36,358 nucleotides of DNA from Acidilobaceae archaeon (lineage in GTDB: Archaea; Thermoproteota; Thermoprotei_A; Sulfolobales; Acidilobaceae): the NCBI GenBank assembly GCA_026986415.1, contig JALSOR010000080.1, positions 1 through 36,358 of the forward strand, written 5' to 3'. Below the pieces are notes generated by a model. It made no database searches. It saw only the letters and a list, made by a program, of their open reading frames with translations, and had not been told where the DNA came from. How positions within the stretch are numbered: position 1 is the first letter of the stretch; each line of letters opens with the position of its first letter. The position numbers were made by a program, and so were the translations under genes. Below are positions 17,840 to 23,135 of this stretch, one piece after another.

Positions 17840-18244
17840 TCATGCAAGGTCCCCGAGGGGTAGGAATCTCGTCTTACAGTTATCATGCTCTAGGCTCGCA
17901 TACAGCTTCCCTATTATTCTGCTGGGGCCTTGTACTACTATTATGTCGATACATTTACCGTCAATATGAATATGCATGTGGCTCGAAACTATATCCTTAT
18001 AGTCTCTAACTTTCGAGGCGACCGCAATATTATCTGGGCATAACCCCACAATAATTCCCCGGCACTCGTGCGGCACCAGCATGTGCTTGTGATCGTCGAG
18101 ATACTGTCTAACAGCCTCCTCGACAAGCCTACTCCTATCTACACCCAGAACCTCTGCAAGCCTGCTCAAGCGCTCCGCAACACTCTTATCAATGCTAATG
18201 CCAAACCTGCTCTTACCGTTACCCCTGGCCTCCCGCCTCTTCAC
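17840..18244 (-). CDS. NikR-like ribbon-helix-helix metalloregulator
   Basis: This 134-residue protein has an N-terminal ribbon-helix-helix DNA-binding domain (FGISIDKSVAERLSRLAEVLGVDRSRLVEEAVRQYL) and a C-terminal ACT-like domain with a His/Cys cluster, SSHMHIHIDGKCIDIIVVQG, at the place where NikR regulators hold nickel. NikR normally represses nickel importers. Here the gene is third in line behind an ABC-3 type permease and its ATPase, 30 bp after the permease, so it probably senses the metal that transporter carries. It may bind the repeated TATGCAC boxes upstream of the operon. The GTG start follows AGGGGG. Assignment to the NikR family is firm; the metal (Ni, Zn, Mn or Co) cannot be told from sequence. 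Confidence 0.85.
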   Translation of the reverse strand: MKRREARGNGKSRFGISIDKSVAERLSRLAEVLGVDRSRLVEEAVRQYLDDHKHMLVPHECRGIIVGLCPDNIAVASKVRDYKDIVSSHMHIHIDGKCIDIIVVQGPSRIIGKLYASLEHDNCKTRFLPLGDLA

Positions 18245-18274: not shown

Positions 18275-19153
18275 CTAGGCCGATCTATGAAATGCCAGGG
18301 CTGCCAGGTATACTATGACTAGCAGGAGACCTATAATGCCGGAGGGGGAGAGGTTTAAGAGGACTGCTAGGAGCAGTCCCACCACGCCTATCGAGAGGCC
18401 TATGATTATACTGGCAACCATGGTCCACAGGCTGCCGCACCTGCAAGATAAGACCGATACTGCTCCAGGCAGTAAGAGTAGGGGATGCTCTATGACGAAC
18501 CCGACAACCGTTACCATGCCAACGCTTGCGAGACCAATAAGGGTGAAGAGGATCAGGTCGTAAAGCCAGACTCTTATACCGCTCAGCTTGGCATCGTCCG
18601 GGTCTGTCCCCATGTAGACTATTTCTGGTGCGCACAGGAAAGTGAGGATCACGGTAGCGAGCGCTACGAGCGCGGAATACTTTACAAGGTCCGGCCCGGC
18701 TAGTAGGGGGTCCCCTATTATTATGGCAGAAATATCTGCTCCAGATACTATCTTCGACATTACATAATACACGGTTAGAGCCCCAGCGCTGGTCGAGAAG
18801 CTAACGAAAAGGCTTGTCGCATCGTCCGGGTCGACACCCCTATATACCATGAAACCCAGCGTGTACACGAGAACTAGGCCGATAATAACAGTCCAGGCCA
18901 ACGGTGCGATCCCGGTCCCATATCCGAGCAGTATTCCAAGCCCTGCAGCCAGGAATGCCGCGTGAGGGGAGCTCGCAGACGCGAAGAGCAGACGCCTCGA
19001 GTATACGAGTATGCTTAACGCGGCGAAAGCAGTGCTCGAAGACGCTATAACTATTAGCCATCGTGCAGGATACTTTTCTGCTAGGAACAAGGATAGTACT
19101 AGATCAAACATTAATATTATTAATAATATTATTTTTTGCTTTACGAAATCCAT
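18275..19153 (-). CDS. Metal ABC transporter permease (ABC-3 family, ZnuB/MntB-like)
   Basis: The 292-residue membrane protein has about eight hydrophobic segments and the ABC-3 family pattern. This includes LFASASSPHAAFLAAGLGILLGYG early on, the PDDATSLFVSFSTSAGALTVYYV segment and GMVTVVGFVIEHPLLLLPGAVSVLSCR near residue 220. It would form the channel for a divalent metal, usually zinc or manganese. The N-terminus (VKQKIILLIILMFDLVLSLFL) is encoded by an AT-rich run. It lies 24 bp after the ATPase gene and 30 bp before the regulator, in the same operon. Confidence 0.88.
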   Translation of the reverse strand: MDFVKQKIILLIILMFDLVLSLFLAEKYPARWLIVIASSSTAFAALSILVYSRRLLFASASSPHAAFLAAGLGILLGYGTGIAPLAWTVIIGLVLVYTLGFMVYRGVDPDDATSLFVSFSTSAGALTVYYVMSKIVSGADISAIIIGDPLLAGPDLVKYSALVALATVILTFLCAPEIVYMGTDPDDAKLSGIRVWLYDLILFTLIGLASVGMVTVVGFVIEHPLLLLPGAVSVLSCRCGSLWTMVASIIIGLSIGVVGLLLAVLLNLSPSGIIGLLLVIVYLAALAFHRSA

Positions 19154-19177: not shown

Positions 19178-19954
19178 CTACCTATGACTATCGACAATAT
19201 GCAGATGACTCGGACCGACAGGAATTATCGCGGAACCATAAACCTCCTCCAATACCTCCCTCCTAATAACAACACTTGGAGGCCCATAAGCAACAACCCT
19301 CCTGTTAACTAGAACTAAGGTCTTCGTCTTATCCAGCAAAAGCATAGGATCATGGCTCGTAACAATAACCAATCTATCCTTAGACGCGTCAACAATAAGC
19401 TTTGCAAGACCAGTCTTACCTGCAGGATCGACAGGGCTCAAAGGCTCATCCATAAGAATAACAGGCCTGCCAGCCGCAATACTTTTTGCTATAAAAACTC
19501 TCATCAGCTGTCCACCGCTAAGCTCGGTCAGCCGCTTAAACCAATGGCTGCTGGGCACCCCCACACGGGACAGGGCGTCCTCCACGAGCCTCCTAGTTTT
19601 AGAATCGCAATATAGCCGGGGCCACGATCTTCTCATTAGTACACTGTAACAGACAGTGTCAAAGGCTGTGAGAGGACTATATCTCCCAACAGGGGGGCTC
19701 TGCGGGACATACGATAGGAATCTACCAGCGATTCTAGGATTTCCTGTAATGTTTACCCCATTAATTATGATGCTCCCGCTTCTTGGCTTTACGAGGCCTG
19801 CCAGAAGGCGGAGTAGTGTCGTCTTCCCCGCACCGTTCGGGCCCAGCACTTGAACCAGGCCTGGCCCCTCTAGCTCGAGACGCTCTATATGTAGGACGCT
19901 TTCCCCCTTATATGCAACCTCAACGTTTTCCACTTCAATCTCGATTCTACCCAT
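19178..19954 (-). CDS. Metal ABC transporter ATP-binding protein
   Basis: This is an ABC ATPase with Walker A GPNGAGKTTLLRLLAG, Q-loop YVPQSPPVG, signature LSGGQLMRV, Walker B PVILMDEPLSPVD and the H-loop TSHDP. It powers the neighbouring ABC-3 permease. The track start (20008) adds 18 residues that are not ABC-like; the ATG at 19954 (MGRIEIEVENVEVAYKG) follows GGTGGTGTG and gives the normal family N-terminus, so I use it. Its length is then 258 residues. The C-terminus LHIVDSHR contains a His pair that may be incidental. The gene is first in the importer operon and divergent from the binding-protein gene. Confidence 0.93.
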   Translation of the reverse strand: MGRIEIEVENVEVAYKGESVLHIERLELEGPGLVQVLGPNGAGKTTLLRLLAGLVKPRSGSIIINGVNITGNPRIAGRFLSYVPQSPPVGRYSPLTAFDTVCYSVLMRRSWPRLYCDSKTRRLVEDALSRVGVPSSHWFKRLTELSGGQLMRVFIAKSIAAGRPVILMDEPLSPVDPAGKTGLAKLIVDASKDRLVIVTSHDPMLLLDKTKTLVLVNRRVVAYGPPSVVIRREVLEEVYGSAIIPVGPSHLHIVDSHR

Positions 19955-20001
19955 AAATGTGCACACCACCACAATCGTTACACTGAGAGAGTAATATTTT
20001 C

Positions 20002-20111
20002 TATGCACAGTATAGAGGAGAACAAAGAGATGTTCGTTAATGGAAGTAAAAGGAGGTTGGCCGGTAAGAGTCTATGCACAAAGCTTTTATTGAGCATGCT
20101 ATTTTATGCAC
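20002..20111. promoter_or_regulatory. Three TATGCAC boxes in the divergent metal-transport promoter region
   Basis: TATGCAC occurs at 20002-20008, 20073-20079 and 20105-20111, all within the 172-bp gap between the ATPase and binding-protein genes. The first touches the AT-rich TATA region for the ATPase operon (minus-strand AGAAAATATTAC). The third lies about 20 bp downstream of a plus-strand TATA candidate (CTTTTATTG, 20084-20092), near the expected transcription start of the binding-protein gene. The third also belongs to an imperfect inverted pair GCAT...ATGC. The arrangement suggests operators for a shared metal repressor, with the NikR-like protein the obvious candidate. Confidence 0.5.
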
Positions 20112-20126
20112 GTTGGGAGATGCATC

Positions 20127-21026
20127 ATGAACAGAGGCAGAACGAAAGAACTATTATTAATATTATTAATATTAATTATATTATCTTCTATTCTACTATA
20201 TGATGCTCTCCAAACTAGACAGCCCCATGCTGTACAGCCGAAAGAGGAAAGGATACTGGTAGTGTCAACGTTCCCAGGAGTGTCAGATGATATACGCCTC
20301 CTAACCCGCGGGTGCGACACTATTAAAGTTGTACCTCTAGCACCTCCGGGATCAGATCCTCACCATTACAGCCTGAGACCGGGCGACGTGAAATTGCTGG
20401 ATAACGCTTCTCTCGTAGTATCTACAGGTCATGCCCCCTTTGAGAAGAGCATCGCAAAGTATGTTCCGCAGGATAAGCTTGTGGTAATACCGGAGATCCC
20501 AGGAATACGCATTCTACGTCTCCCTACTGGTGCAGTGAATCTTCACATGCCTATATACGACCCTAGGAATTACGCGGTTTTCATGAATTACATCGCTGGC
20601 AAGCTAGAAACGCTAGATCCTAACTGCTCAAATATAATAAATAAAAACAAAAACTATATATTTAGAAATATAAGCATTCTTGAAAAATATACAAATATTA
20701 TGAATGGCACGCTCGCGGTCGCCTCGAGCCCGCTAGCAGAGTATCCCGCCAGCTGGTTAGGTATAAACATAACGGTATATTTATCATTACAGCCCGGCGC
20801 CTCCGCGATCCCTCCAGATGTTATTAGCAGGGCGGAGGAAACCCTTAAAAACAACGGGCTGGCTATTATAATTGTTGACCAGGAAGGGGCCCCCGTGGGT
20901 CAAGTGGATAAGAGCCTAGAGGCATTAGCATTAAAATATAATGCTAAAATATTAAAAATACCTGCACCTTACCTGCCCGAGCCCACACTGGATAAGCTGG
21001 AAACAATAGCGTCACAGGTAAAATAA
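20127..21026 (+). CDS. Metal-binding solute-binding protein (ZnuA/MntC-like, SBP family 9)
   Basis: After a membrane anchor (ELLLILLILIILSSILLYDAL) the protein shows the cluster A-I binding-protein pattern: ILVVSTFPGVSDDIRLLTRG, LAPPGSDPHHYSLRPGDVKLL, SLVVSTGHAPFEKSI, VNLHMPIYDPRNYAVFMNYIAGKLETLDP and the C-terminal VDQEGAPVGQVDKSLEALAL. His residues in DPHHY, STGH and NLHMP are probable metal ligands. It would capture a divalent metal outside the cell and pass it to the divergent ABC permease/ATPase. I start at the ATG at 20127, seven codons after the track start, because GGGAGATG lies four bases upstream. No lipobox cysteine is seen, so a transmembrane anchor is likely. A patch of AAT/AAA codons (IINKNKNYIFRNISIL) is strikingly AT-rich. 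Confidence 0.9.
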   Translation: MNRGRTKELLLILLILIILSSILLYDALQTRQPHAVQPKEERILVVSTFPGVSDDIRLLTRGCDTIKVVPLAPPGSDPHHYSLRPGDVKLLDNASLVVSTGHAPFEKSIAKYVPQDKLVVIPEIPGIRILRLPTGAVNLHMPIYDPRNYAVFMNYIAGKLETLDPNCSNIINKNKNYIFRNISILEKYTNIMNGTLAVASSPLAEYPASWLGINITVYLSLQPGASAIPPDVISRAEETLKNNGLAIIIVDQEGAPVGQVDKSLEALALKYNAKILKIPAPYLPEPTLDKLETIASQVK

Positions 21027-21304: not shown

Positions 21305-21958
21305 GTGGCATGTCCCTACGCTAAAAACATACGAGGCACAGTAGCATACTGTTCTCTCATAGGCAAGAAAGTAAGCACTCTCCGCTTCCCATGCAAAGGG
21401 AACTATAAGAGGTGCCCCATCTATATAAGGTATGGCGGGAGACAGCGGGCCCCCGAGAGGAGGGCTAAGACCCAGGCTCCCCCTCCCGAAACAGTCCAGG
21501 CACCACAGCAGAGAAAGGAAGCCCCTACCCCGTCTCCCCCAACAGAAGCAAGCACCCCTAGAACAGTAGCTGGGGCGAGAGTGGCTCCCACAAGCAATGC
21601 CAAGCCTAGCGAGGTCCTATGCGATAGTCTAATTTTAGCTGCACTTCTCGCTAGCGGCTCCCTTATTGACAGGTATAATGGGGATTTCGCCGGGCTCATC
21701 AGTACTCTTAACGCGAAATACGCGGGCGGGGAGCTCATATTTATCGTGGGCCATCTAGGCTCTTACAGTTTAAGGGCCCTTTATAGGAGTGGAAAGCTGG
21801 TCTACGCTTTCGAGAGTAATGGTGTAGCAATTTGTGGTGCTGACGCGGAGAAACTGCTCGAGGACAATATCAATATGCCTTTAGACGCGATACTATACAG
21901 GGTGGAATGGGAGAATATACCCTTATGGAGGGATACTATCGTAAAAGAGTTATCATAA
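21305..21958 (+). CDS. Cys4 N-terminal, proline-rich-linker protein of unknown function
   Basis: I do not recognise this 217-residue protein. Four cysteines at residues 3, 16, 30 and 37 (CPYAK...CSLIG...FPCKGNYKRCPIY) could bind zinc or an iron-sulfur cluster. Residues about 45-100 form a linker rich in Pro, Ala, Thr and Arg. The last 115 residues (EVLCDSLILAALLASGSLIDRYNGDFAGLISTL, then GGELIFIVGHLGSYSLRALYRSGKLVYAF) look like a compact alpha/beta domain that may sense or bind a partner. It starts with GTG and has GGGGTG upstream. The three-part layout resembles a regulator or adaptor, but that is only inference. The upstream repeats suggest controlled expression. Confidence 0.75.
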   Translation: MACPYAKNIRGTVAYCSLIGKKVSTLRFPCKGNYKRCPIYIRYGGRQRAPERRAKTQAPPPETVQAPQQRKEAPTPSPPTEASTPRTVAGARVAPTSNAKPSEVLCDSLILAALLASGSLIDRYNGDFAGLISTLNAKYAGGELIFIVGHLGSYSLRALYRSGKLVYAFESNGVAICGADAEKLLEDNINMPLDAILYRVEWENIPLWRDTIVKELS

Positions 21959-22166: not shown

Positions 22167-23135
22167 GTGTTCCCGGCTCTCGCAACATTCACGGTGGTAG
22201 CCCCTATCCTATTAATTACCGGTATAGTCATCCTATCTATAGGAGTACTATACAGGATCAGGGAGCAGATACTTGTAAGCGTGGGATTCCTACTCCTAGG
22301 TTTAGCGTTCGTCTCAGCCATAGCGGCCCTAAACAGTACGGACGAGAATCTAATCATAACATACAACTGGAAGTACAGTATCGTCAAGCAGCTAGAAATA
22401 GCATTCCTAAACCCGTTCAGAGGCCCAGCAACCCCAGGTATTGTGCAGATAAACGCGTGGCTAGGAGCTAAACAGTACATGGTGCTCGCAGCCACACTCC
22501 TAGTCCTAGGGGTCACCGTGCTCTCCTACGTTGGAACCCTAATGATGGGCGCCTCAACCAAGATAGCGTCGGCACTAGCAGTCATAGTGGCGATCCTAGG
22601 GTTCGCAGGCATAGGCCTTATGAGTAAGGCGGTGAACGCGCTAGTATACCAGGCTCCCATAACAGAATTCATAAAATACTTCAACCAGTCAGCAGGACTA
22701 AGGGCGGCAAGCATACTGCTCGCCTTCATAATTCTTGTCGCAGGCGCCGGCTCGATCTACTATGAGACTAAGACCAGGGCCTACCTCCTCTACAGCGTGT
22801 CATTCCTCCTGAGCGCTATTGGATGGGCCCTGCTCATGTCAACAGCCTTCTACCGGTACCAGATACTTGCCACGCACGAGCTCATAATGGAGAATAATAT
22901 TGCGACCTCCAACGCCATATTCCTGTCGGCCGCAGGCTTCATAGTGGTCGGCGCGGTGGGCCTGCTAATAGCTAGCATCATAGAGGTCATAAGCTCGGCC
23001 GCGGCTGGCCTAGAGGAGGTCGAGGGCCTAGAAGAGATAGGAGAAGAAATAGAGGAGGTCGAAGGGGAAGTAGAAGAGGCTGAGACTGGCGCCGAGACCG
23101 AAGAAGAGGAGTCCGGCGAGGAGGAAGGAAGCTAG
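22167..23135 (+). CDS. Polytopic membrane protein with long acidic C-terminal tail
   Basis: I cannot assign a family. The 322-residue product has about eight membrane segments (PALATFTVVAPILLITGIVILSIGVL, ILVSVGFLLLGLAFVSAIAAL, MVLAATLLVLGVTVLSYVGTL, IASALAVIVAILGFAGIGLM and others). It ends in some 50 residues that are nearly half glutamate (AGLEEVEGLEEIGEEIEEVEGEVEE and so on), probably on the cytoplasmic side. A mid-loop NWKYSIVKQLEIAFLNPFRG faces the other side. The GTG start follows GGGGGTGTGTGAAGG. The acidic tail may bind cations or basic proteins. The gene stands alone, with a hairpin-rich leader and no co-directional neighbour within 170 bp. Confidence 0.75.
   Translation: MFPALATFTVVAPILLITGIVILSIGVLYRIREQILVSVGFLLLGLAFVSAIAALNSTDENLIITYNWKYSIVKQLEIAFLNPFRGPATPGIVQINAWLGAKQYMVLAATLLVLGVTVLSYVGTLMMGASTKIASALAVIVAILGFAGIGLMSKAVNALVYQAPITEFIKYFNQSAGLRAASILLAFIILVAGAGSIYYETKTRAYLLYSVSFLLSAIGWALLMSTAFYRYQILATHELIMENNIATSNAIFLSAAGFIVVGAVGLLIASIIEVISSAAAGLEEVEGLEEIGEEIEEVEGEVEEAETGAETEEEESGEEEGS

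Follow-up and report, generated by a model that had tools for sequence, protein, structure and literature searches.

The window, that is, the whole stretch of 36,358 nucleotides of an Acidilobaceae archaeon that was analysed, carries on its minus strand an operon encoding an ABC transporter ATPase (19178–19954), an ABC-3 family permease of the Znu/Mnt type (18275–19153) and, as its last gene, a NikR-like regulator of 134 amino acids with a ribbon–helix–helix (RHH) and an ACT domain (17840–18244). The gene of a ZnuA-type metal-binding protein (20106–21026, plus strand) is divergently oriented, and this confirms the gene layout given in an earlier reading made from the sequence alone (the sequence-only reading). 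Two of the mechanically assigned starts, GTG 20008 and ATG 20106, fall within the boxes described below. We took ATG 19954 as the start of the ATPase gene and rejected GTG 20008, which lies inside site 2; for the binding-protein gene ATG 20127 is the likelier start. The ZnuABC-type importer set is complete, with PF01297, PF00950 and PF00005 all above the cut-off. Compared with the ligand set of ZnuA, the binding protein has conserved H86, H109 and H147 and no clear third or fourth ligand, and these residues are not diagnostic of the metal. Two further proteins, neither with a Pfam match (21305–21958 and 22167–23135), are encoded after the binding-protein gene and are likewise conserved there in several relatives (L032, L033, L043). 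Bacterial promoter and terminator scans were uninformative on the DNA of the window.

Boxes in the intergenic region

The three copies of TATGCAC to which the sequence-only reading had drawn attention are present as exact matches on the plus strand at 20002–20008, 20073–20079 and 20105–20111. Over the whole window the heptamer is not enriched (four matches vs 3.45 expected); within the intergenic region none of 20,000 dinucleotide shuffles of that region reached three copies, so that the clustering goes beyond chance. The heptamer is thus real and clustered, but judging from the orthologous promoters it is a local degenerate form of the palindrome TGTGCACA and not the box itself. The longer register T(A/G)TGCAC(A/G) had been overlooked and likewise the best copy in the window, TGTGCACA at 19958–19965, which is the sole perfect palindrome of the set.

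In this register the window contains a series of four candidate operator sites, whose starts follow one another at 44, 71 and 32 bp. Site 1 (TGTGCACA, 19958–19965), which fits the ortholog consensus T-GTGCAC-A, is the downstream site and site 2 (TATGCACA, 20002–20009, plus strand) the upstream site of the ATPase promoter, with a predicted TATA-like stretch of that promoter (19992–20001, minus strand) between them. The binding-protein promoter has site 3 (TATGCACA, 20073–20080, plus strand) upstream and site 4 (TATGCACG, 20105–20112, plus strand), which overlaps an ATG, and again a putative TATA-like stretch in between (20082–20091, plus strand). The spacing of 44 bp instead of 32 bp at the ATPase promoter counts against the operator reading proposed below. 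A scan of the 1.26 Mb metagenome-assembled genome for box pairs, as the sequence-only reading had proposed, returned RTGCAC-N25-27-RTGCAY once only, at 20074–20111, and the 32 bp regulon of this genome may therefore consist of this locus alone. There are four other copies of TGTGCACA in the genome, three of them inside open reading frames. A lone TGTGCACA at position 1502 of L075 (G000:C126:3679-3686) precedes, by about 196 bp, the gene of a small CxxC-pair protein resembling a zinc ribbon, which is possibly an extra target.

Box pairs in orthologous promoters and across the order

Orthologs of the regulator occur through most of the family of the window. The region between the ATPase and the binding-protein gene was readable in 19 genomes, the window included, and all 19 regions contain GTGCAC (38 copies vs 1.0 ± 1.0 in shuffles); TGTGCACA is present in 20 copies, as compared with 0.1 in shuffles. 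The boxes, whose absence from orthologous promoters would have spoken against the sequence-only reading, are therefore retained throughout and in better form. Neighbouring sites are 32 bp apart in 14 to 15 of these regions, 31–32 bp in L036 and 33 bp in two g3 genomes; the distance between TGTGCACA and its partner TATGCATA is 33 bp in L034 and 32 bp in L043. In addition to this class of 32–33 bp, equal to three helical turns, there is a second one of 42–44 bp, equal to four. In many orthologs (e.g., G006, G151, and G158) one site has a TATA-like TTTATAA immediately on its inner side, and the second site is close to where transcription is expected to start. A crude score for a TATA inside the pair gave 21 of 40 compared with 13.9 ± 2.8 in shuffled spacers, which is a trend only. 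On comparative grounds the predicted operator is the palindrome TGTGCACA, arranged in pairs about 32 bp apart which frame the core promoter.

An order-wide sample of 214 genomes contains an ortholog of the regulator (E ≤ 1e-19) in 117. The pair GTGCAC-N25-27-GTGCAC, corresponding to 31–33 bp, was found 82 times in 71 of the 214 genomes, as against 18 for the reversed control, and the neighbouring spacings of 24–30 bp gave just 32 pairs over seven spacings. Pairs at 31–33 bp are present in 65 of the 117 genomes with the regulator and in 6 of the 97 without it (Fisher p 1e-15, a value in which independence is overstated as the genomes are related). The exact pair is missing from 52 regulator-bearing genomes, for instance from G004, and degenerate sites account for the ones inspected, including the window.

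In the g2 and g4 genomes (Acidilobus/Caldisphaera-type) the regulator gene lies beside a DtxR-like gene and such an ABC operon is not nearby. Here the pair is found directly upstream of an unrelated membrane protein in which the motif HGxTPDEHTWP is conserved and which is weakly NicO/LysE-like (NicO match with E 0.02, below the Pfam cut-off). This occurrence of the pair in trans is separate evidence for the proposed link between regulator and box. Among 80 public homologs of this membrane protein the pair is located upstream of five, all from Caldisphaera, Hestiella or Acidilobaceae records, and a pair of the 32 bp class was not found in those of the 80 that come from other archaea. Two Thermoproteus records (L260, L277) show a NicO/LysE-like gene with two upstream GTGCAC motifs 43 bp apart, which is a four-turn spacing as in the window. 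In g2 and g4 the DtxR-family gene is directly upstream of the NikR-like gene (L038, 5655–6065; L050, 172–591), and this adjacency suggests that the two metal sensors are encoded in one operon.

The regulator and its cbiM-linked paralogs

The regulator has matches above the cut-off to Pfam RHH_1/RHH_3 and to NikR_C, i.e., an N-terminal RHH domain and a C-terminal NikR ACT domain. The AF2 model (pLDDT 88.7) has P. horikoshii NikR as its best PDB match with a TM score of about 0.75. The NCBIfam NikR models, however, reach 22–31 bits on this protein against cut-offs of 83–175, which is below the curated NikR score, and in the tree all 31 orthologs of the family cluster in a single clade that excludes NikR and its paralogs, with a support of 100/99 and a long stem. 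In NikR nickel is bound by His87, His89 and Cys95 together with His76 of the neighbouring subunit (PMC7055735). The counterparts of the first three, H91, H93 and C98, are invariant in 30 orthologs, the His89–Cys95 interval being one residue shorter in most of them than in NikR. At the position of His76 none of the orthologs aligned has a histidine, whereas one is present in the cbiM-linked paralogs and in NikR of P. horikoshii. The DNA strand has F14, G15 and S17 as further invariant residues and the linker has H54, H59 and C61, the latter three being absent from NikR; these new histidines and cysteine suggest a different, perhaps tetrahedral, metal site. The designation as a NikR-like repressor in the sequence-only reading thus holds for the fold; this is not a canonical NikR, since His76 is lacking and true NikR paralogs are found beside cbiM in the same genus. 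By its sequence the regulator represents a divergent clade of the NikR superfamily with an operator geometry predicted to be its own, and is best filed apart from NikR. The genome of the window also encodes a second, very divergent NikR-like paralog (L069, 4412–4828; G000:C144) without the His/Cys ligands of NikR.

The canonical NikR paralogs of the order adjoin the nickel/cobalt transporter gene cbiM, and both kinds of regulator occur together in G035, G038 and G042, where it is the canonical one that neighbours cbiM. The CbiM promoters in the order often contain GTGCAC pairs at 21–22 bp. This class leans to R-GTGCAC-Y, as opposed to T-GTGCAC-A (82%) in the 32 bp class. The simplest reading, based on the cbiM linkage and on nearby NikR genes (e.g., in G071), is that the 21–22 bp pairs would belong to canonical NikR, and that one half-site core would thus serve two sensors by means of two spacings. 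Pairs at 21–22 bp also precede FmdE-like and radical-SAM HemN-like proteins (L203–L226, near position 1501) and in the same set small conserved membrane proteins (MACFITPL...EHVWHGEVVP), so that the 21–22 bp regulon exceeds cbiM.

The arrangement resembles the NikR systems of E. coli, H. pylori and P. horikoshii in the two-domain fold, the His-x-His and Cys residues, the location with a metal importer and the two half-sites on one face of the DNA. It differs in the half-site, which is GTATGA there and TGTGCACA here, in the spacing, the half-sites of E. coli NikR being 22 bp apart (GTATGA-N16-TCATAC) instead of 32–33 bp (PMC7055735), and in the targets, which are here Znu-type ABC or NicO/LysE-like transporters. 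With the cbiM-linked NikR of the same order it apparently shares the GTGCAC core and also a similar DNA strand, [KR]FG[VI]; that protein differs in its 21–22 bp spacing, its R-GTGCAC-Y flanks, the retained His76 and its nickel/cobalt ECF transporter. The proposed likeness to Zur/ZnuABC and MntR/MntABC lies in the metal-dependent repression of an importer of the ZnuA/ABC-3 type, but the regulators of those circuits are of the Fur or DtxR type, and the one described here is a member of the NikR superfamily. The DNA-binding domain also matches CopG (E 8e-4), an RHH plasmid repressor whose operator likewise has a TGCA core, but which is without an ACT/metal domain and stands outside metal circuits.

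Proposed regulation and the sensed metal

From the motif with its pairing, spacing and conservation and from its tracking of the regulator gene we infer that the NikR-like protein encoded at 17840–18244 uses the boxes as its operators, binding them in pairs, and that it would exert metal-dependent, autoregulated repression of the importer; we put the probability of this reading at about 0.78. One RHH dimer would occupy each TGTGCACA-type palindrome and a tetramer would bridge two palindromes, 32–33 bp (three turns) or 42–44 bp (four turns) apart around BRE/TATA, on one face of the DNA. With plentiful metal the protein would sit on both promoters and block TBP/TFB or the polymerase, and when metal is scarce it would be released. 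As the regulator gene is part of one of the repressed operons, importer and regulator would be repressed together, giving a negative feedback. The feedback regulon on an ABC metal importer suggested by the sequence-only reading is strongly supported by comparative genomics, namely by all 19 orthologous regions and by boxes that track, in trans as well as across the order, the presence of the regulator gene. What that reading noticed is real and applies more widely than it stated, the function being a prediction from comparative genomics.

We give hardly any credence to a reading without a regulator, in which the boxes would be repeats by chance or else parts of the core promoter or of start codons. 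The missing enrichment of TATGCAC over the window, the ATG within site 4 and the capacity of VHIP starts to yield GTGCAC by coding, as in G150, would fit such an explanation, but not the conservation in every ortholog, the fixed spacing and the fact that the pairs are mostly missing in genomes without the regulator. A DtxR/MntR-family regulator binding the GTGCAC pairs in place of the NikR-like protein would fit the DtxR-family gene next to that of the NikR-like protein in g2 and g4. DtxR genes, however, occur throughout f9, where there are no pairs at 31–33 bp, and no DtxR gene was found in G037, G038, G094 and G097, all of which have pairs. Due to this mismatch we rule out DtxR as the binder and, the pair tracking the NikR-like gene, regard such binding as very improbable.

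The sensed metal is the weakest step. Among the candidates, which also include cobalt, manganese and iron, zinc is favoured over nickel, because the nickel/cobalt system with cbiM has a canonical NikR paralog beside it and because this clade is without His76. We consider it unlikely, though clearly less so than binding by DtxR, that the regulator, like NikR, senses nickel (or else cobalt), with an importer taking up nickel or cobalt and with the operator layout as the only difference. The NikR fold and the retained His-x-His and Cys ligands would agree with this, as would the weakly NicO-like target in g2 and g4 and the lack of a cbiM match in these two; the ever-missing histidine at position 76, which the cbiM-linked paralogs keep, the invariant H54, H59 and C61 and the three genomes owning both regulators argue against it. 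The CbiM of G150 was considered as a member of the regulon, which would favour nickel, and was rejected; its pair has a spacing of 21 bp and a third GTGCAC is made by the gene's own VHIP start, and this argument for nickel was therefore dropped.

Returning to zinc as the favoured metal, we tentatively propose, at somewhat less than even odds, that these archaea have a pair of NikR-family paralogs sensing different metals. Both would use the palindromic GTGCAC core and be distinguished chiefly by spacing, with two helical turns (21–22 bp) for the canonical nickel NikR and cbiM and three (32–33 bp) for the divergent paralog, probably a zinc sensor, and its ABC or NicO/LysE-like transporters. If this is true, operator spacing, with some aid from one flanking base, would encode which metal a promoter obeys. 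The two repressors would be a natural pair of paralogs for studying the co-evolution of operator spacing and metal-site changes. In the literature on NikR, zinc and archaea, mostly outside subscription papers, we did not find a description of such a circuit. The hyperthermophiles of this order are mostly uncultured, and for them our analysis provides a predicted regulator of metal uptake together with its operator and targets. The operon is presumably also borne by the cultivable genus Aeropyrum (G005/G006).
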